Shown here piece by piece: positions 20,110-34,502 of a stretch of DNA of 64,000 bases (positions within the stretch are counted from its first letter, which is position 1; each line of letters starts with the position of its first letter). The position numbers were made by a program, and so were the translations under genes. Source of the stretch: Opitutia bacterium (lineage in GTDB: Bacteria > Verrucomicrobiota > Verrucomicrobiia > Opitutales > Opitutaceae); the NCBI GenBank assembly GCA_947472765.1, contig CANJCM010000012.1, positions 1 to 64,000 on the forward strand. Direction: 5' to 3'. The notes below the pieces were generated by a model that was not told the DNA's origin, did not search any database, and was given only the letters and a program-made list of their open reading frames with translations.

Positions 20110-22428
20110 CTACTTCAGGATAGAATACAGGTTGGTGAAATCGTCGGTCCAGAGGGGCATGGGCTTGGACAGGGCCAGCGGGGGCTCGGCCGCCTCGCGA
20201 ATCACAGATTGGTTGAGGAAGGCCTGGTTCTTCGAGACCAGCATCCAGGTCGTGGCGTAGATCCACCACTCCGGTTCCTTGTCGTCCGAGATGCTCACCA
20301 CCCCCATGCCAAAGTGCTCGGCGAGTTTCTCCACCACGGGCCGCAAATCGAGATAACGATTCGAGATATGCACCGCGATCACGCCGTCGGGCTTGAGCTG
20401 CTTCAGGTAGATCTCAAACGCCTCCTTCGTCAGCAGGTGCACCGGGATGGCATCGCTGCTGAAGGCGTCGAGCGCGAGCAGGTCGTACTGCGGGGAACGG
20501 TTCTCCGCGATTTCGTTCTCCATCGTGAGGCGGGCGTCGCCCATCAGGACATCGACCTTCGCGGGGGTCTTTTCGATATGGGTGAAGAACGTCCGGGCCA
20601 GGGTCTCCACCGCCGGATTAATCTCGTAGATCGTCAGATGGTCCCCCGCCCGTCCATAAACCGCCAGCGTGCCGGTTCCGAGGCCGACGAGGCCAAGGCG
20701 GCGCGCGCCTTCCGGCAGGTTGTTGATCGCCATGCCGATCCCGCTCGAGGGCGGATAATACGTCGTCGCCATCATCGAGCGCTCCGGATTCTGGAACTGC
20801 AGCCCATGCGTCGTCGCCCCGTGCAGCAGGAGATGATAGTTATCCTGCTCGTCGAAGGGATAGTAGTTAAAGACCTTCAGCGTGCCGTAGAAATTGCGGG
20901 AGGAATTGATGATCTGCACGCTGCCGCGGTCGCGCCACTGGATCATGAAGAGCACACCCAGAGCCATCGACAGCACCATGATCAAACCCGCCATACGCGG
21001 CTGCCAGGTCCGCAACAGCGAGCGCTGCCGCCAGTCGATCAGGCAGACAAGCAGCGCCGCCACGGCGACCAGCACATACCACTTCTTCTCGGTGAAAAAT
21101 TCCCGGAGTTCCGTCCAGAGGCCGCTGCCGCCGTCGTAGTGCGACGACAGCCAGGGCAGCACGAGCGCCAGCGCGATCGTGCCAAGGGCCGCACCGACGG
21201 CGAGGCTCCGGCTCTGGTGCCGAAAGCACACCACGGCCACCAGGTAGCTCAGGATCCACAGGCCAATCTGCAGCTCGCGGTAATCGTCGAAGATCGCCGG
21301 GGCCACCACCGCCACCAGGAACCCGCCCAGTGCCCCGCCGAACGAAATATAGAGAAAGTAGGACGTCAGCTGCCGCGGCAGCGGCTTCAACCGGTAAAGT
21401 TCACCGTGACACACCATGCATGCGACAAACAGGGTCGCGGTGTAGCCGATGATCTGGATCCGAATCGGAACCTCGTTCCCCAGTGGCAGCATCTGCGCAA
21501 TCATCGCGCCACCGATCACGAGCAGCGCGCTGAACACGCCACGATTGTACCAACGGGCGTGATCAAAACAGATGATGAATGTCAGCAAATAGAGGCTGAG
21601 CGGCAGCACCCACAGGAACGGGATGACTGCGACTTCCTGCGACAGCTTGTTCGTCGTTGCCAGCAGCAGGACCGACGCCACGGCCGGGAGTCCGATCCAC
21701 AGCAGTTTATCCGAGATATCCGGGTTCTCGACCGATTCCGAGCTGGCTGCCACCGCCGGCGTGGCTTCGCCCGAAAGCACCGCGCCGTCCGCCAACGGTG
21801 CTGGCTCCGGAGCGGGCGCAGGAGGCGTCACAACCGGGACGCGCTGGCCGAGCTTCCACACCTGCCACGCGCAAAAGCCGCAGAACACCACGAAGACCGC
21901 GAGGCCGGCGGACCACATGTTGGCCTGGGTGTGACGGGGAAACTTCACCTCGAACACGAACGGATAACTCAGCAGCGCGAGCAGCGAACCTACGTTCGAC
22001 AGCGCGTACAACCGGTACGGAGACACACCGGGATTGGTCTGGCTGAACCACTGCTGCATCAGCGGACCCGTCGAGGAGAGGACGAAGTAAGGCAGTCCAA
22101 TCGTGGCGACGAGCAGGAGGAGAATGCTCCAGGTCGGGTCCCCGGACGGATGCGGTTTCCAGGCGTCCGAGGGCGTGATCGGCAGCAGCGCCACGGAGAG
22201 TCCCAACAACACAAAGTGCAGAATCGCCTGCTGCTTCGGCTTCAGGTACGTCGACGTGAAGTGCGCGTAGGCGTATCCGCCCAGCAGCACGGTCTGGAAA
22301 AACAGCAGGCACGTCGTCCACACCCCCGGGCCACCGCCGAACCAGGGCAGGATGTACTTCCCGATGAGGGGCTGAACCTGAAAGAGCAGAAAGGCACCGG
22401 TGAAAATCGTCAGCGCGTAGGGAAGCAT
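20110..22428 (-). CDS. Membrane-fused spermidine synthase-like protein
   Basis: A 772-aa fusion. The first about 480 residues carry many hydrophobic segments (starting MLPYALTIFTGAFLLFQVQP), resembling the membrane half of 'fused MFS/spermidine synthase' proteins. The C-terminal third is an AdoMet/dcAdoMet-type Rossmann domain: GLVGLGTGTLAVYG near 540, IYEINPAVETLA, LMGDARLTME and the acidic LLALDAFSSDAIPVHL, equivalent to the spermidine synthase catalytic loop. True polyamine synthesis is not proven; such fusions are mostly uncharacterised. The ATG at 22428 is preferred because the upstream 100 codons are low quality and include repeats. Confidence 0.85.
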   Translation of the reverse strand: MLPYALTIFTGAFLLFQVQPLIGKYILPWFGGGPGVWTTCLLFFQTVLLGGYAYAHFTSTYLKPKQQAILHFVLLGLSVALLPITPSDAWKPHPSGDPTWSILLLLVATIGLPYFVLSSTGPLMQQWFSQTNPGVSPYRLYALSNVGSLLALLSYPFVFEVKFPRHTQANMWSAGLAVFVVFCGFCAWQVWKLGQRVPVVTPPAPAPEPAPLADGAVLSGEATPAVAASSESVENPDISDKLLWIGLPAVASVLLLATTNKLSQEVAVIPFLWVLPLSLYLLTFIICFDHARWYNRGVFSALLVIGGAMIAQMLPLGNEVPIRIQIIGYTATLFVACMVCHGELYRLKPLPRQLTSYFLYISFGGALGGFLVAVVAPAIFDDYRELQIGLWILSYLVAVVCFRHQSRSLAVGAALGTIALALVLPWLSSHYDGGSGLWTELREFFTEKKWYVLVAVAALLVCLIDWRQRSLLRTWQPRMAGLIMVLSMALGVLFMIQWRDRGSVQIINSSRNFYGTLKVFNYYPFDEQDNYHLLLHGATTHGLQFQNPERSMMATTYYPPSSGIGMAINNLPEGARRLGLVGLGTGTLAVYGRAGDHLTIYEINPAVETLARTFFTHIEKTPAKVDVLMGDARLTMENEIAENRSPQYDLLALDAFSSDAIPVHLLTKEAFEIYLKQLKPDGVIAVHISNRYLDLRPVVEKLAEHFGMGVVSISDDKEPEWWIYATTWMLVSKNQAFLNQSVIREAAEPPLALSKPMPLWTDDFTNLYSILK

Positions 22429-22505
22429 GTGGACAGGTAAAAGCTGGATAGGGGTTTGGCGGGGTACGGCCAGCGGGCCGCAACCGGGCATGACGTAGAA
22501 CATTT

Positions 22506-22539
22506 GGATCCGATGCAACGACAGCTTCGTTTCGGATCC
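22506..22539. promoter_or_regulatory. Inverted repeat between divergent genes
   Basis: GGATCCGA (22506-22513) and TCGGATCC (22532-22539) form a perfect 8-bp dyad with an 18-bp spacer in the 364-bp gap 22429-22792, between the divergent spermidine synthase fusion and secreted-protein genes. It may be an operator or a chance palindrome. Nothing else in this gap is recognisable. Confidence 0.3.
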
Positions 22540-22792
22540 CGAAGGCAGGACTTGCCGATAATCGGATGAACTGACACCCGCCACCCGTGACCCGCCGACC
22601 GCGTTGGGGTCCGCACCTGCTTCGCCTTGTCCCGGCGGAACCTGCTTGTGGCCAGATACCACTGCTCGCTCTGGCTCCGCGCTTCGCTCGCAGTCTCGGC
22701 CAATCGGCAATCGGAATTCGCCCCTCGGCAATTCCAAGCGGAACCGCGGGATTTGGCGTGAGTCTCAGTTCGCCGTGTTGCAGCGTCGGCTC

Positions 22793-27230: not shown

Positions 27231-28118
27231 TTACGCGGGCCAGTAAGTCTTCAGTTTTTGCCGCACGAAGCGGACGCTTTCCTCGAGTTCGTCCATGCCG
27301 TTGACGCCGTCTTCGATGCTGACCCAGCCGTTGAAACCCGCGCCGCGGAGTTCGCGGAAGATCGCATCGTAGTCATTCAGGCCGCGGCCGATCGCGCCGT
27401 GGCGCAGCCGCTTCGCGTAGCCCTCGGCACCGTCTTCCTCGCGTCGCAGATCCTCGATCGTGCCGGAGATCAGGCTGCGGTCGCTGGCATGCATCGTCAC
27501 GACACGATCCTTTACGCGGCGCAGGAGCTCGAGGGGATCGTCACCGGCGAGGAAAGCGTTGCTGGGATCGTAGTTCACGCCGAAACGCGGATGACGGATC
27601 CGATCCACGAGTGCACAGAACACATCCATCTTCTGGGCGAACTCCGGGTAGCTCCAGAAGTCGTCCTTGTAGTGATTCTCGAGAATCAATGTGACACCGC
27701 ACGCCTCCGCCTCCGGGAGGCAGGCCTCGATGCACCCCACGACGAGATCGAGGCCCTGGTTGATGGTGAGTTCGGGGCGGCGCTGCCCAGACAGGACGCG
27801 GCAGTATTTCGCCCCGAGCGTGGCGGCCATCCGGATCCAGTTCTTCTCGCGTTCGATCTCCTGCCGACGCAGTTCCGGGTCCGGCAGCGAGAAATCCGGG
27901 GAACAGCAGAGCATGGGTATCACCATCCCGCGGGCCTCCACGGCGCGGCGGGCGGCGGGCCACTGGCTCGGGTCGGCGAGTTCGAGGAAGCCGGAGTAGT
28001 ATTCGAGCCCGTCGAGCCCGAGCGGCGCCGCGAGTTCGATCCACTGTGCGAGCGTCATGGTGCCGTCGCGGCACAGCGGCTTCATGAAGGCTTTGGGGAA
28101 GGCGGCGAGGAGGGGCAC
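27231..28118 (-). CDS. Sugar phosphate isomerase/epimerase (AP_endonuc_2 TIM barrel)
   Basis: A 295-aa soluble TIM-barrel protein. Family features are LGLDGLEYYSGFLE near 33-46, TLILENHYKDDFW near 143-155 (catalytic Glu of ENH), FGVNYDPSNAFLAG near 180-193 and WVSIEDGVNGMDEL near 268-281. Members isomerise or epimerise ketoses or inositol derivatives with a divalent metal. The SDR gene lies upstream on the same strand, separated by a family G palindrome; co-transcription is likely and suggests sugar or polyol catabolism. Confidence 0.85.
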   Translation of the reverse strand: MPLLAAFPKAFMKPLCRDGTMTLAQWIELAAPLGLDGLEYYSGFLELADPSQWPAARRAVEARGMVIPMLCCSPDFSLPDPELRRQEIEREKNWIRMAATLGAKYCRVLSGQRRPELTINQGLDLVVGCIEACLPEAEACGVTLILENHYKDDFWSYPEFAQKMDVFCALVDRIRHPRFGVNYDPSNAFLAGDDPLELLRRVKDRVVTMHASDRSLISGTIEDLRREEDGAEGYAKRLRHGAIGRGLNDYDAIFRELRGAGFNGWVSIEDGVNGMDELEESVRFVRQKLKTYWPA

Positions 28119-28242
28119 AGGGAAAGTGGGAGTTAAGAGTTAGGAGTTAGGAGGTGGAAGAAGGATAGGCTGGCCGGGAGCCCGGAGCGAAAAGTGAGAG
28201 CTCACGTTTCTTAACTCTTAACTCCTAATTCTCACTTCTCCC
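28119..28242. repeat. Family G palindromic repeat
   Basis: GTGGGAGTTAAGAGTTAGGA on the left and TTAACTCTTAACTCCTAATT on the right form inverted arms with about 50 bp between. They sit exactly between the SDR stop and the epimerase start. The same arms are at 41956-42088. Confidence 0.75.
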
Positions 28243-29013
28243 TCACTGCTTGTCCGGGTTGCGGCCGAAGAGGGAGTACTGCTCGAGCTCGACCACGGAG
28301 CCGCTGATCGGGCGGGATTCGTCGCCGAGCCAGTAGATCGTGGCGGCAGCGACTTCCTCCGGACGGATCAACCGCCCGGACGGCGCGAAGACAGTCGGGA
28401 CCTTGTCGGGCCAGTCGGGCGGCATGCCGTGCTCGATTTGGTGGTGATACTCGCGCGTGGTCAGCACCCAGCCGACATTGAGGTGGTTGAAGCGGACCTG
28501 GTCGGTGCAGTGGGCGTTGGCGAGATTGCGCGTGAGAGTCTGCAGACCGCCCTTCGACAAACTGTAGGCAAGCAGCGAGGGCTGGCCGCTGTAGGCGTTG
28601 ATCGAGCCGATGTTCACGACCGAGCCCTGCGTGGCCTTGAGGTGCGGGAACGCGGCCTGAATGAGAAACAGCGGGGCGCGGAGGTTCACGGCCATCATGC
28701 GTTCGAAGAAATCGAGCCGGGCCGTGGCGAGGGTGTCGCGCGCGACGATGGCGGCGTTGTTCACGAGTCCATCGATCCGGCCGAACGCGCGCAGCGCCGC
28801 CGCGACGATTCGCTCCGGGGACGCAGGATCGAGCAGATCGTCGAGATGGAGAGCGGCGCGCGCTCCGAGTCGGGCGACGACCGCCTCGCCATCGGCGCGT
28901 TCGATGCCGTGCACGAGCACGCGGGCGCCTTCAGCCACGGCGCGGCCGGCGATAGCTTCGCCGATGCCCGACGTGCCGCCGGTGACGATGATGACTTTGT
29001 CCTGGAGTCGCAT
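28243..29013 (-). CDS. Short-chain dehydrogenase/reductase
   Basis: A 256-aa classical SDR. TGGTSGIG near 11-18 is the cofactor motif, NNAA near 84-87, catalytic S near 138 in NIGSINAYSG and YSLSK near 149-153. The C-terminus ends in VVELEQYSLFGRNPDK rather than the common VDGG. It oxidises or reduces a sugar or polyol hydroxyl with NAD(P). It is transcribed ahead of the sugar epimerase, implying a shared carbohydrate route. The ATG at 29013 is preferred; the longer frame contains repeat sequence. Confidence 0.88.
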   Translation of the reverse strand: MRLQDKVIIVTGGTSGIGEAIAGRAVAEGARVLVHGIERADGEAVVARLGARAALHLDDLLDPASPERIVAAALRAFGRIDGLVNNAAIVARDTLATARLDFFERMMAVNLRAPLFLIQAAFPHLKATQGSVVNIGSINAYSGQPSLLAYSLSKGGLQTLTRNLANAHCTDQVRFNHLNVGWVLTTREYHHQIEHGMPPDWPDKVPTVFAPSGRLIRPEEVAAATIYWLGDESRPISGSVVELEQYSLFGRNPDKQ

Positions 29014-29125
29014 GGGGTAAGAAGAGACGCGCGCCGGTGCGGCGACGCGGTGCGGGGCAGGCAAGCCCAGCGAGGGAGGCCGGACGAGCTGAAAGTCGTT
29101 TTGGGAGGAGGCGATGTCTTGAAGT

Positions 29126-29284
29126 GGCCGGTGGGGGCACCGGCCCTCCATTGGGCGGGGTTTCGGCATCGTTCTCATGCTCGGGCCCGGTCGCACGAGA
29201 GAACGCCTACAAGAACGAAGGAAGGACCGGTTGGGTACGATCGGGGCCAATCGAAAATCGAAAATCCAAAATTGGAAATCTCAG
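29126..29284. repeat. Hairpin and family H repeat in the 379-bp gap
   Basis: The gap 29014-29392 between divergent genes holds a hairpin GGCCGGTG-GGGG-CACCGGCC followed by CTCCA (29126-29150) and an AT-rich block AATCGAAAATCGAAAATCCA (29251-29284, family H). Nothing coding is seen. Promoters for both flanking genes must lie here. Confidence 0.6.
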
Positions 29285-29392: not shown

Positions 29393-30571
29393 ATGTCAAC
29401 GAGCCCCAACCGGCGCGATTTTTTGAAATTCCTGGCGGCCAGCCCGCTCGCCGGCCTCACCGGCGCGAAGGCCGCAGATGCGGTCATCGCCGCTCCGGGC
29501 GACGCGCTGAACGTCTTCGATTTTGAAAACGCCGCGCGGCAGATCCTCCCGCCCGCGCACTTCGGCTACATTGCCACCGGCGTCGACGCGGACGTAACGG
29601 TCCGTGCGAACCGCGAGGGAATGGAGAAGTTCTACATCCGCCCGCGCCGGCTCGTCGACACGTCGAAGACGGATCTCTCGGTCGAGCTTCTCGGCACGCG
29701 CTGGCCGACGCCAATCGCCCTTGCGCCGATCGGCAGCCAGCGCGCCTTTCATCCGGAGGGCGAAATCGCCGTGGCGAGGGCCGCCGGCGCGAAGAAGCAC
29801 CTGCAGATTCTGTCGACGCAGACCACCTCCTCGATCGAGGACATCAACGCCGCCTTTGGCAGCCCGATCTGGTTCCAACTCTACGCCTCGACCAACTGGA
29901 CGCTGTCGCGGGCCATGGTGAAGCGGGCTGAGGCCGCGGGGTGTCCCGCCCTCGTCTATACCGTCGACCAGATCAGCGGCAGCAATCGTGAGACGCTGAA
30001 GCGCTTTTCGGCCCAGGACTCACGCGACTGCCGAGTCTGCCATGACAACACCTCTCTTGAGACGCGCAACATCCGGCGGCCGATGTTCCAGGGCTTGGAC
30101 CAAACGAAGACAGCGTTTCAGCCACCGACGAACTGGGACTACGTGAAGCGGCTCCAGGACACGACCTCGATGAAGATCGTGATCAAGGGGATCGTCACCC
30201 GCGAGGATGCCGAACTCGCCGCGAAGCACGGCGTCGCCGCGGTCGTGTGCTCGAATCACGGTGGGCGGGCCGACGACATCGGCAGTTCGTCGATCGAATG
30301 CCTTCCTGAAATCGTCGCCGGCGTCGGCGGCAAGATCCCGGTGCTCGTCGACGGCGGTTTCCGGCGCGGCACAGACATCTTCAAGGCGCTGGCGCTGGGC
30401 GCGCACACCGTGCTGATTGGCCGGCCCTACGTCTGGGGCCTGAGTGCGTTCGGACAGGAAGGCGTCGCGGCGGTCCTCGAGATTCTCCGGCGCGAGTTGC
30501 AACTCGCGATGCGTTACGCCGGTACGCCGAAGATTGCTGACATCACGCCGGCGCATGTGGGGAAGCACTAG
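29393..30571 (+). CDS. Tat-exported FMN-dependent alpha-hydroxyacid dehydrogenase with CxxCH
   Basis: A 392-aa member of the glycolate oxidase/L-lactate dehydrogenase (flavocytochrome b2) family. A Tat leader (NRRDFLKFLAASPLAGL) is followed by the FMN barrel: LAPIGSQRAFHPEGE near 110-124, QLY near 172-174, K265 in KIVIKGI, catalytic H289 and R292 in SNHGGR, and VDGGFRRGTDIFKALALGA near 319-337. The variable loop carries DCRVCH, a CxxCH motif (C213, C216, H217) typical of covalent c-type haem attachment. That would fit a periplasmic enzyme passing electrons to the respiratory chain. Haem binding is not proven; a single loop may instead bind metal. Substrate is probably lactate or another 2-hydroxyacid. 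Confidence 0.88.
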   Translation: MSTSPNRRDFLKFLAASPLAGLTGAKAADAVIAAPGDALNVFDFENAARQILPPAHFGYIATGVDADVTVRANREGMEKFYIRPRRLVDTSKTDLSVELLGTRWPTPIALAPIGSQRAFHPEGEIAVARAAGAKKHLQILSTQTTSSIEDINAAFGSPIWFQLYASTNWTLSRAMVKRAEAAGCPALVYTVDQISGSNRETLKRFSAQDSRDCRVCHDNTSLETRNIRRPMFQGLDQTKTAFQPPTNWDYVKRLQDTTSMKIVIKGIVTREDAELAAKHGVAAVVCSNHGGRADDIGSSSIECLPEIVAGVGGKIPVLVDGGFRRGTDIFKALALGAHTVLIGRPYVWGLSAFGQEGVAAVLEILRRELQLAMRYAGTPKIADITPAHVGKH

Positions 30572-30892: not shown

Positions 30893-31870
30893 TCAGGCGC
30901 CGATGAAATCGTTCGTGAAGAACGCGTCGGCAGGGCGGTCGGTCTTGAGGCCGCCGTGCTGCTTGAGCACGTCGAGGGTCTGCTGAAGCGCGGCGGGCTC
31001 GATGCGTCCGGTCGGCTTCGCGCCGGTGGCGAGGCCCTGAAACACCTCGAGGCTGTTCGCGAGGAGCTCCGCGTTGAGCGGGGTCTCAGCGATTTTCACC
31101 AGCGCCTGCACCGCCGCCTTCGGATCCTCGAGCGCAGCGATCCAGGAACGCTGCGTCGCCGTGACCATCCGGCGCACGAGGTCGGGCTTTTCTCGAATCG
31201 TGTCCTGGTGCGTGATCAGGGCAGAGCCGAGCGTGGGCACGCCGAGATCCGCAAACGTCACCGCCACCGCAGGGAAGCCGGCTTTGCGCAACGTCACCGG
31301 CTGATCCGAAATCCCGCAGAACGCCGCGTCGACCCGGCCCGTGCGCAGCGCCGCGACCGCCGCCGTGCCGTCGAGGTAAACGAGCTCCACGTCCGATGCC
31401 TTCATGCCGTTCGCTGCCAGCACCGCGGGCCAGATCTGCGTGTTACCGTCGCCGGGCGTGGCCGAAACCTTCTTCCCGATGAGATCGCGCGCCGAGCGGA
31501 TCACGAGCCGGTCCTTCAAGGTGACGACGCCGAGGTTGCACTTCGTCATCATCATGACGGCTTTCACCGGCACGCCCTGCGAGGCGACGACGAGGAGCGC
31601 GGAGGTGTCGGCCCAGACGAAGGTGTCGAGCTTGGCGCCCGCCTGTCGGATGGTGGCGCCGGATCCCTTGCCCTGCCCGACGGTCAGGTCGATGCCGACA
31701 TCTTTGTAATAGCCGCGTTCGCGGCCGAGGACGACTGGCGCGTAGTTGCCGACCCAGGACCAGTTGAAACGAATGGAGACGGCATCCGGAGCGGCAGCGG
31801 CCGCCCGCGCTGCGAGAGGCCAGCCGAGTCCGGCAACGATTCCGGCTTTGAGAAAGTCGCGTCTTTGCAT
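30893..31870 (-). CDS. NMT1/THI5-like ABC substrate-binding protein, copy 2
   Basis: A 325-aa exported binding protein with a Tat-type leader (QRRDFLKAGIVAGLG). It belongs to the SsuA/THI5-like NMT1 group: FNWSWVGNYAPVVLGRERGY near 36-55, GKGSGATIRQAG near 67-78 and ISDQPVTL near 188-195. It is the last gene of the LacI-linked operon and a close paralogue of the gene just upstream; about two thirds of residues match by eye, including the ATPGDGNTQ and GRVDA segments. Two binding proteins sharing one permease may widen substrate range. Ligands of this group include sulfonates, pyrimidines and aromatic acids; none can be assigned. Confidence 0.88.
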   Translation of the reverse strand: MQRRDFLKAGIVAGLGWPLAARAAAAAPDAVSIRFNWSWVGNYAPVVLGRERGYYKDVGIDLTVGQGKGSGATIRQAGAKLDTFVWADTSALLVVASQGVPVKAVMMMTKCNLGVVTLKDRLVIRSARDLIGKKVSATPGDGNTQIWPAVLAANGMKASDVELVYLDGTAAVAALRTGRVDAAFCGISDQPVTLRKAGFPAVAVTFADLGVPTLGSALITHQDTIREKPDLVRRMVTATQRSWIAALEDPKAAVQALVKIAETPLNAELLANSLEVFQGLATGAKPTGRIEPAALQQTLDVLKQHGGLKTDRPADAFFTNDFIGA

Positions 31871-31891
31871 GGGGTAAAATCGAGGGCGCAC

Positions 31892-32887
31892 TCAGGCCGG
31901 CGCACCGGCGAACTCATTCGTGTAGAAGGCTGACGCCGGCAGATCCGTTTTCACGCCACCGTGCTGCTTCAGCACCTCGAGCGTCTGCTGCATCGCGGCC
32001 GGTTCGATGAAGCCGATGGGATTGGCCCGCGTGGAGAGCCCCTGGAAGACCTCGAGTCCGCCGCGCAGCACCGCCGGATTCACCGGGGTCTCGGCATAAC
32101 GCACGAGCGCGTCGACCGCGGCACCCGGGTCCTGCAACGCCGCCTGCCACGAACGCTGGGTGGCGGCGACGACCCGCCGCACGAGGGAAGGGTTGTCGCG
32201 GATCGTGTCGACGTGGGTGAACACGCCCTGGCCGAGCGTCGGGACGCCCATCTCGGCGAAGGTGAGAAATTTCGCCTTCAGACCCGCGGTCCGGAGTGTG
32301 ACCGGCTGATCGGACACGCCGCAGAACGAGGCATCGACCCGGCCGGCCCGCAGCGCGGCGAGGGCGGCGTTGGAGTCGAGGAAGACGAGTTCGATCGCCG
32401 AAGGTTTGATCCCGTTCGCCGCCAGCACGGCGGGCCAGAGCTGCGTGTTGCCGTCGCCGGGCGTGGCCGAAACCTTCTTCCCAATCAGATCGTGAACCGT
32501 GCGGATGTTCGTCCGATCCTCGAGCCACTGCACGCCGAGGTTGCTCTTCGCCATCACCATCACGGCGCGCACCGGGATGCCTTGGGCCGCGGCCACGACG
32601 AGGGCGGAGGTGTCGGCCCAGACGAAATGATCGTTCTTCGCGCCGAGTTGCCGGACCGTGGCACCGGAGCCCTTCCCTTGCCCTACTGTGAGATCGATGC
32701 CGGCGTCTCGGTAGAAACCACGTTCGCGACCACCGACCACGGGGGCGCAACCACCGACCCAGAACCAGTTGAAACGCAGCGAGACCTTCTCGAGCGGCGC
32801 GGGAATCTTCGCCCCGGCCGCCCGCAGGCGGACTCCGCCGGCCAGCGCCGCGACCGCTCCGGCAGAAATGAACGTTCGGCGATTCAT
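31892..32887 (-). CDS. NMT1/THI5-like ABC substrate-binding protein, copy 1
   Basis: A 331-aa exported binding protein, leader NRRTFISAGAVAALAGG (twin Arg). It has the same fold and motifs as copy 2: FNWFWVGGCAPVVGGRERGF near 40-59, GKGSGATVRQLG, ATPGDGNTQLWPAVLAANGIKP. Differences concentrate near the probable ligand pocket (GGCAP against GNYAP) and around residues 130-145, which suggests diverged specificity after tandem duplication. It lies 23 bp downstream of the ATPase gene and 21 bp upstream of copy 2. Confidence 0.88.
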   Translation of the reverse strand: MNRRTFISAGAVAALAGGVRLRAAGAKIPAPLEKVSLRFNWFWVGGCAPVVGGRERGFYRDAGIDLTVGQGKGSGATVRQLGAKNDHFVWADTSALVVAAAQGIPVRAVMVMAKSNLGVQWLEDRTNIRTVHDLIGKKVSATPGDGNTQLWPAVLAANGIKPSAIELVFLDSNAALAALRAGRVDASFCGVSDQPVTLRTAGLKAKFLTFAEMGVPTLGQGVFTHVDTIRDNPSLVRRVVAATQRSWQAALQDPGAAVDALVRYAETPVNPAVLRGGLEVFQGLSTRANPIGFIEPAAMQQTLEVLKQHGGVKTDLPASAFYTNEFAGAPA

Positions 32888-32910: not shown

Positions 32911-33720
32911 CTAGTACTGAATGATGCCGCGCGCCATAAAACGTTCCGTGATGGCGTCGCAGTATTCGGCGAAGCGCTTGCTGGCAACGACCGCCTTGTC
33001 GCGCGGCCGGGGCAAATCGATCGTCAGCACCTCGTCGATCTGCCCCGGACGCGGCGACATGATCGCAACGCGGTCCGAAAGCGCGACGGCCTCGGCGATA
33101 CTGTGCGTGATGAAGAGCACGGTCTGCCGCCGCTGCAGCCAGAGTTTTTCCAAATCGATCTGCATCTGCACCCGGGTCAGGGCATCGAGCGCACCGAACG
33201 GCTCGTCGAAGAGCAGCAGCGAAGGATCGTGGACCAGCGCGCGGCAGATCGCGGCGCGCTGCCGCATGCCGCCCGAGAGTTCGTGTGGATACTTCGCCGC
33301 GAATTCCTCCAGCCCCGTCCGCCGCAGAAGTTCCCGGGCCCGCACTTCGAGCGGACCGAGCGGCAGCCGGCGAATCTCACCCTGAAGCATGATGTTCCCG
33401 AGAATGGTCCGCCAGTCGTAGAGGCCGTGCTCCTGGAAAACGATGCCGACATCGGTCACGGGCTCCGTCACCCGCTGGCCGTCGATCGCGATTTCGCCGG
33501 ATGTGGGGGCCTCGAGGCCGGCGACGAGCAGCAGGAACGTACTCTTCCCGCATCCGCTCGGCCCGAGCATCGAGAGGAACTCGCCGGCGCGAATGCCGAA
33601 GGACACCTCGCGGAGGGCGACGACCTCGCCATCGTGGGCCGGATAAATCTTCCCGACCTTCGACGCCGTGATGTGCATCGCGGCAGCCGGCACCGCGGCC
33701 TCGGGGGCGGGATTCGTCAT
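32911..33720 (-). CDS. ABC transporter ATP-binding protein (SsuB/TauB type)
   Basis: A 269-aa single-domain ATPase. Walker A is GPSGCGKST near 48-56, Q-loop FQEHGLYDW near 93-101, signature LSGGMRQRAA near 145-154, Walker B LLLFDEPFGALD near 165-176 and the switch His in ITHSIAEA. The Q-loop region and VTDVGIVFQE place it with nitrate, sulfonate and taurine importers. It starts 5 bp after the permease stop; a 14-residue longer start would overlap that gene. Confidence 0.92.
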   Translation of the reverse strand: MTNPAPEAAVPAAAMHITASKVGKIYPAHDGEVVALREVSFGIRAGEFLSMLGPSGCGKSTFLLLVAGLEAPTSGEIAIDGQRVTEPVTDVGIVFQEHGLYDWRTILGNIMLQGEIRRLPLGPLEVRARELLRRTGLEEFAAKYPHELSGGMRQRAAICRALVHDPSLLLFDEPFGALDALTRVQMQIDLEKLWLQRRQTVLFITHSIAEAVALSDRVAIMSPRPGQIDEVLTIDLPRPRDKAVVASKRFAEYCDAITERFMARGIIQY

Positions 33721-33725
33721 GGCGA

Positions 33726-34502
33726 TCAGAGGGCCGGGTTGAGCCGCTGCGAGACGTGCCACCCGGTCGTCAGCCGTTCGACGCCCTCGACGGCAAAATA
33801 GAGCACGATGCCCATGAGCGTGAGCAGCAGCATGCCGGCGAACGAGAGCGGTGTGTTCATCTCACCGTTGGCGACGAGCACGAGGTAACCGAGCCCGCGC
33901 TGGGACGCGATAAACTCGCCGACGATCGCCCCGATGGCGGAGGACGCCATGGCGAGTTTCAAGCCGGCGAAGATGTTCGGCAGCGCCTGCGGCAGCCGGA
34001 CCTTGAAGAAGAGCGTGGCACCTTTCGCGCCCATCGATCGCGCGACGCGGACCTGCTCGGGGCGAATCGAGGTGAAGCCCACCACCGACTGCAGCACGAC
34101 CGCGAAGAACGAGAGCAGGAACGCAATCAGGACCTTTGGCAGAAAGCCGAAGCCGAGCCAGATCACGAACAGCGGGGCCAGCGCGATCTTTGGCACCAGT
34201 TGCGAGAAAACCAGCATCGGGTACACGGTGCGGCGAAAAAGCGGGGAGAAGGCCACGGCGAGGGCCAGGGGAATCCCGATGATCGCGGAGAGCGCGAAGC
34301 CGGCGAGAATGATGCCGAGGGTCGACGAGGCGTGCCGCATCAACATGGGACCGTGCGTCCAGATTTCCTGAAAGATCCGGCTCGGCGGCGGAAGCAGGAA
34401 GACGGAGACGTTCGTCACCCGCACGCCGATTTCCCAAACCGCGAAGAGCAGCGAAATCCCGATGACCGGGCTGAGCGCGCTTTTCCAGAGCTGGGATTTC
34501 AT
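33726..34502 (-). CDS. ABC transporter permease (SsuC/TauC type)
   Basis: A 258-aa inner-membrane protein with about six hydrophobic segments and the coupling motif VRVARSMGAKGATLFFKVRLPQ (shown here as VARSMGAKG near 153-161). It begins with a 4-bp ATGA overlap on the Gfo/Idh dehydrogenase stop, tying transport to catabolism in one operon. Confidence 0.92.
   Translation of the reverse strand: MKSQLWKSALSPVIGISLLFAVWEIGVRVTNVSVFLLPPPSRIFQEIWTHGPMLMRHASSTLGIILAGFALSAIIGIPLALAVAFSPLFRRTVYPMLVFSQLVPKIALAPLFVIWLGFGFLPKVLIAFLLSFFAVVLQSVVGFTSIRPEQVRVARSMGAKGATLFFKVRLPQALPNIFAGLKLAMASSAIGAIVGEFIASQRGLGYLVLVANGEMNTPLSFAGMLLLTLMGIVLYFAVEGVERLTTGWHVSQRLNPAL

Follow-up and report, generated by a model that had tools for sequence, protein, structure and literature searches.

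The stretch of DNA analysed here (the window) comprises 64,000 nucleotides of contig CANJCM010000012.1, from a bacterium of the family Opitutaceae. On its forward strand it carries a gene for an FMN-dependent 2-hydroxyacid dehydrogenase with a predicted export signal (Table 1). The encoded protein matches the FMN_dh family of Pfam over residues 48-389, with an E-value of 4.8e-113 and 378.2 bits against a cut-off of 24.9, and by this profile and its catalytic residues it is a full-length FMN_dh enzyme, like glycolate oxidase, lactate oxidase and mandelate dehydrogenase in both fold and catalytic residues. A scan of the protein against NCBIfam returned nothing above a model's cut-off. The N-terminus, MSTSPNRRDFLKFLAASPLAG, reads by eye as a classical twin-arginine signal and passes the rule that we used on all 135 family members considered below, whilst the Pfam Tat-signal model gives it 20.7 bits, under that model's cut-off of 22.7; TatC is present in the same genome. 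This genome also holds two further FMN_dh matches over the cut-off, the better of which (contig 17) is full-length and lacks a CxxCH motif.

The feature that drew our attention is the CxxCH motif itself. Bases 30029-30043, TGCCGAGTCTGCCAT, comprise the codons TGC CGA GTC TGC CAT and encode Cys-Arg-Val-Cys-His at residues 213-217. When the window protein was shuffled, CxxCH arose in 239 of 200,000 sequences (~0.1%), which is rare yet possible by chance, so that a single sighting is weak evidence and the weight has to rest on conservation.

Table 1. Features of the FMN-dependent dehydrogenase gene, in window coordinates
Feature	Position	Strand	Basis
FMN-dependent 2-hydroxyacid dehydrogenase gene, 392 aa, predicted Tat-exported	29393..30571	+	translation from ATG at 29393; PF01070
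Twin-arginine signal region, aa 1-28 (end approximate), RRDFL at aa 7-11	29393..29476	+	sequence; Tat rule
His56, clade-specific invariant; proposed distal haem ligand	29558..29560	+	26/26 clade, 0/117 others
Tyr59, substrate tyrosine (Tyr40 of lactate oxidase by alignment)	29567..29569	+	25/26 clade
Loop 4, aa 191-247, lid between beta4 and alpha4	29963..30133	+	predicted secondary structure; loop 4 of lactate oxidase (PMC4908395, parts available)
Clade signature D209-x-R211-x-C213-x-x-C216-H217	30017..30043	+	26/26 members
C213-R-V-C216-H217 (CxxCH), proposed haem c attachment site	30029..30043	+	sequence, translation, clade conservation
Catalytic residues K265, H289, R292	30185..30268	+	26/26 clade, 56/56 thinned other members

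Conservation and spread of the CxxCH signature

When 90 ORFs were first aligned, the pattern D-x-R-[DQ]-C-x-x-C-H occurred in the nearest relatives of the window protein (80%, 73% and ~56% identity, and two Rhodoplanes MAGs at ~50%) and was absent from relatives at ~43% identity or lower. The family set comprises 135 rows, left after removal of partial matches (query end <375 or start >60), of ORFs shorter than 250 aa and of rows that did not differ beyond residue 40; sorting these rows by the presence of CxxCH gave 18 with and 117 without, figures that hold by construction. The motif-less rows were thinned to 56 for the tree and for residue comparisons. All 18 motif carriers fall on one branch of this tree with an SH-aLRT of 100, a value that is also obtained when the columns of loop 4 and the N-terminus are removed, and on this topology a single gain of the motif is enough.

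Further members of this clade were sought by profile. A seven-member profile was searched in 297 genomes from the order of the first Rhodoplanes MAG (G500), where 12 genomes had matches at E <=2.5e-140, each with the motif, and the next match (7.5e-82) was without it. Plasmid 1 of Methylobacterium bullatum (Hyphomicrobiales) carries a clade member, as does a second genome (G619), whose copy the duplicate filter merged with that of M. bullatum. Later members were found with an 18-row profile at a limit of E 1e-100, the columns of which include the motif. Among 252 genomes of the window's family, this gave eight matches at E <=1e-100 in seven genomes, seven of them with the motif; the only match under 1e-100 that lacks it (G004, 4.1e-101) lies outside the clade in the tree. 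The family of G619 (199 genomes) yielded nine matches in eight genomes, with the motif in 9/9. Eight new distinct members (L212, L215 and L217-L222) were added in this way and all eight have the motif, these having been chosen by profile score after the pattern had been seen. At the level of phyla, the 387 genomes searched from the window's own phylum held no match better than 9.6e-98 apart from that of the window, and when the 30 best matches were opened the motif was in none but the window's own. Six of the 398 genomes from the phylum of G500 carry the motif; the order search had already found all six, and the motif is missing from the match that ranks after them (7.2e-95). As far as sampled, the clade ranges over the Opitutaceae and the Hyphomicrobiales, in two phyla, and transfer of the gene between these phyla is possible.

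Across the resulting 26 distinct members, for which pairwise identity has a median of 52% and a minimum of 44%, D-x-R-x-C-x-x-C-H is kept throughout, and a chance motif was rejected on this ground. Within loop 4 (residues 193-247), T201 is the only other invariant beside D209, R211, C213, C216 and H217. In the 18 sequences of the family set, the pair of residues separating the cysteines is variable whilst the CxxCH spacing stays exact, and the codons vary synonymously (TGC in 17 and TGT in one for Cys213; 15 and three, respectively, for Cys216; CAC in 13 and CAT in five for His217). C213 and C216 are the sole cysteines kept throughout the clade, and H217 is as invariant as they are, which matches the requirement of CxxCH haem sites. 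An earlier note on this DNA had proposed that a single c-type haem, or else another metal, is held within the barrel, and took conservation of the two cysteines and the histidine in orthologues as a point on which this could fall; since 26/26 members keep all three and the Tat signal goes with this clade, the proposal survives and is partly supported, with the attachment of haem being the part that we infer.

The remaining catalytic residues behave similarly, with Tyr164 kept in 26/26 clade members like the residues in Table 1, and Tyr59 in all but one. This catalytic set being kept, a hydroxy acid should reduce the FMN. The exception at Tyr59 is the most aberrant member of the clade (L222, G1322:C119), in which Tyr59 is replaced by Ser and Asn288 by Asp. 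His56 and the whole signature are intact in this protein despite these changes, as would be expected if they form one site. The chemistry of L222 is perhaps altered.

Export, haem c maturation and gene neighbourhood

Applying a single rule to the whole ORFs of all 135 members, we found a twin-arginine signal in 18/18 clade members vs 2/117 others, and reading of the eight later members showed Tat signals in them as well. Given that the clade arose once, the association of Tat signal and CxxCH counts as one evolutionary event. The two exported proteins outside the clade (L016 in G073 and L007 in G061) are FMN_dh proteins from the Opitutaceae with a Tat-like signal and no CxxCH, and so represent natural controls. 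We also considered the machinery for haem c assembly. The family PF01578 was present in 17/17 clade genomes searched vs 9/14 control genomes; being common in the controls too, it shows no more than that haem c attachment is possible.

Neighbouring genes were clustered at 19 clade loci, with frames chosen by codon-position GC. The clusters that recur are DUF1523 (5/19 loci), a saccharopine-dehydrogenase-type protein (4/19) and a D-2-hydroxyacid dehydrogenase (3/19), one member of each having been Pfam-scanned; a conserved operon partner was rejected. Of the 19 loci, three have a class I cytochrome c gene near the clade gene. At two of these, both from Methylobacterium (L162 10614-11390 and L165 10990-11766), the cytochrome gene encodes a membrane-anchored protein and is directly upstream on the same strand, and the proteins at these two loci are identical and come from the same or nearly the same species; at the third (L142) it is on the opposite strand. 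This frequency does not indicate a dedicated partner. At two further loci (L176 and L092) one of the neighbouring ORFs contains CxxCH but, judged by eye, is not a cytochrome, and the window itself has a long membrane protein ORF with CxxCH (CMVCH) at 20110-22737 on the reverse strand that likewise does not appear to be a cytochrome.

Divergent SDR and xylose-isomerase-like genes lie beside the FMN gene both in the window (27231-29250, reverse strand) and in the 80% identical relative (L175 2105-3967), which offers a hint, and only a hint, that sugar-derived acids may be the substrate. Elsewhere in the window, two adjacent paralogous NMT1/THI5-like substrate-binding proteins (one identified by Pfam, the other by eye) are encoded at 30893-32887 on the reverse strand, and these adjoin ABC transporter genes at 32911-34502.

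The lid and candidate haem ligands

An AlphaFold model of the window protein, made with 50 of the 135 aligned members as input, shows the strands of the barrel and has a mean pLDDT of 90.8; a single-sequence model reached 39.4 and was set aside. The nearest solved folds to the model are the plant and human glycolate oxidases, with Z scores of 47-48. Profile and single-sequence searches of solved chains matched only known family enzymes and found no clade structure. In the model the motif lies between strand beta4 (186-190) and helix alpha4 (248-257), with block means of pLDDT between 78 and 91 over residues 201-250. The reading in the earlier note of a motif placed in a variable loop of a Tat-carrying FMN protein is thus borne out, the loop in question being loop 4 of the predicted barrel.

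The available portion of PMC4908395 has loop 4 of lactate oxidase closing over the active site and needing to move for substrate and product, and that of PMC10153336 locates FMN at the barrel's C-terminal end and gives loop 4 a part in catalysis. By homology with these enzymes, the clade loop carrying the motif would cover the active site, which is the position that electron transfer from FMN would need. The lid of the clade has been rebuilt, since the family lid arginine (R199 here; Arg181 in avLOX and R164 in sGOX) is kept in 7/26 clade members vs 55/56 others. Near the FMN, position 162 is Gln in the window protein and in 54/56 other members and is Met in 13/26 clade members, a change that may tune the flavin.

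A c-type haem in this position could draw its second axial ligand from elsewhere in the barrel, and His56 is the residue to which the comparison points. It lies on a predicted helix (aa 54-61), three residues ahead of Tyr59 and hence one helical turn from it. The residue of flavocytochrome b2 that matches Tyr59, Tyr143, contacts a haem propionate, and this would put a haem near His56. The equivalent residue of lactate oxidase, Tyr40, is named in the part of PMC4908395 available.

Other candidate ligands were examined and set aside. Among the 26 clade members there is no invariant Met after the motif; the candidate distal Met found 21-22 residues past the start of the signature (RRPMF/RKPMF) is absent in four members (L173, L174, L172 and L142) and so cannot be a general ligand. 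H136 was rejected as a ligand, being Asn in 5/26 members.

A possible haem c on the flavin barrel

Taking these observations together, we consider it probable, though well short of certain, that the active-site lid carries a covalent c-type haem, perhaps ligated by H217 and H56, which accepts electrons from FMN. A more specific version is one that we put forward tentatively, as somewhat less than an even prospect: the protein may be a minimal flavocytochrome c, made up of one (beta/alpha)8 FMN barrel with a mobile lid bearing one haem c, ligated by H217 and H56 and attached after Tat export. On this same tentative reading, the haem would occupy the active-site mouth, approximately the place taken in flavocytochrome b2 by the whole docked cytochrome domain.

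Such an enzyme would bind FMN and fold its barrel in the cytoplasm, and Tat would export the folded flavoprotein. The cytochrome c maturation system would then link C213 and C216 covalently to haem; H217 would be the proximal ligand and H56 perhaps the distal one. A hydroxy acid would reduce the FMN, which would hand single electrons to the haem at the active-site mouth, as happens with the b-type haem of flavocytochrome b2, and the lid haem would in turn reduce a periplasmic acceptor, for example a soluble cytochrome c. The lid haem would in this way be a stand-in for the haem domain of flavocytochrome b2, with no need of a cytochrome domain. Haem c attachment takes place outside the cytoplasm. 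A difficulty is that Tat cargo is folded whereas haem c usually joins chains that are still unfolded, though a mobile loop might permit attachment to a folded, exported protein.

The same residues could serve other ends. The first alternative, in our judgement unlikely, is that C213 and C216 together with H217 and/or H56 bind a metal, most probably zinc, in a site that is structural or redox-inactive and pins loop 4. Cys-x-x-Cys and histidines are common zinc ligands, His56 is co-conserved with the motif and could complete the site, and insertion of the metal in the cytoplasm would suit the Tat export of a folded protein. Adjacent Cys and His on one zinc would be unusual, yet H217 is invariant, and zinc would give no reason for the motif being confined to an exported clade. 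We regard as improbable a redox-active C213-C216 disulphide that would pass electrons from reduced FMN to periplasmic thiol partners, as does the CxxC of flavin sulphydryl oxidases. The presence of CxxC in a loop closing over the flavin site (in the model, and from the available part of PMC4908395) and the fact that no other cysteine is kept throughout the clade would both suit this role, but it leaves the invariant H217 and H56 unexplained, and no gene for a thiol partner stood out among the neighbours searched, of which nine ORFs were Pfam-scanned. Least probable of all is a purely structural role, in which these residues shape the rebuilt lid and hold no cofactor, whether or not the cysteines form a plain disulphide. 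In favour of it, an invariant residue may be kept for structural reasons, conservation of D209, R211 and T201 is just as complete as that of the motif, and exported members lacking the motif exist (L007, L016); against it, a plain disulphide requires neither His217 beside Cys216 nor His56, and the CxxCH spacing never changes although the intervening two residues do.

The favoured reading, a haem c on the lid, is best considered against known flavocytochromes. In p-cresol methylhydroxylase and flavocytochrome c sulphide dehydrogenase the haem is housed in a cytochrome domain or subunit, unlike the proposed clade haem, whose place would be a loop of the flavin barrel itself. Both of these enzymes couple a flavin to haem c via CxxCH, as set out in the accessible part of PMC6472588. 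The same portion of that source describes flavocytochrome b2 (L-lactate:cytochrome c oxidoreductase, EC 1.1.2.3) as an enzyme in which electrons from FMN reach cytochrome c by way of a haem close to the active site, this haem being b-type with His/His ligation in a separate domain of ~86 residues, at an FMN-haem edge distance of 0.53 nm. The window protein shares the FMN barrel family of this enzyme (1fcb is among the profile matches). However, neither it nor the 18 clade members has a Pfam match to a cytochrome b5-type haem domain (E up to 0.01), and no cytochrome family, and so no known cytochrome c fold, is among the Pfam matches of the 18. By domain content, the window protein is not a flavocytochrome b2; the clade is without the haem domain and has CxxCH in loop 4 instead. 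It differs equally from the 117 other FMN_dh members, in which CxxCH (by the way the set was split) and His56 are absent and of which most are not exported by the Tat rule. We found no description of a haem-c member of the FMN_dh family in the open literature, which mostly leaves out subscription journals.

Should haem attachment be confirmed, the wiring of a flavin to haem c would need no cytochrome domain, a short loop motif and one new histidine being sufficient. A haem c on a loop of a folded, Tat-exported protein would also be informative about substrate choice by the cytochrome c maturation system, and sensor builders could gain a compact hydroxyacid dehydrogenase that is self-contained and transfers electrons directly. 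The presence of the clade in two phyla argues that the arrangement has lasted and, if our reading is correct, it would represent an unusually small route for electrons from flavin to haem.
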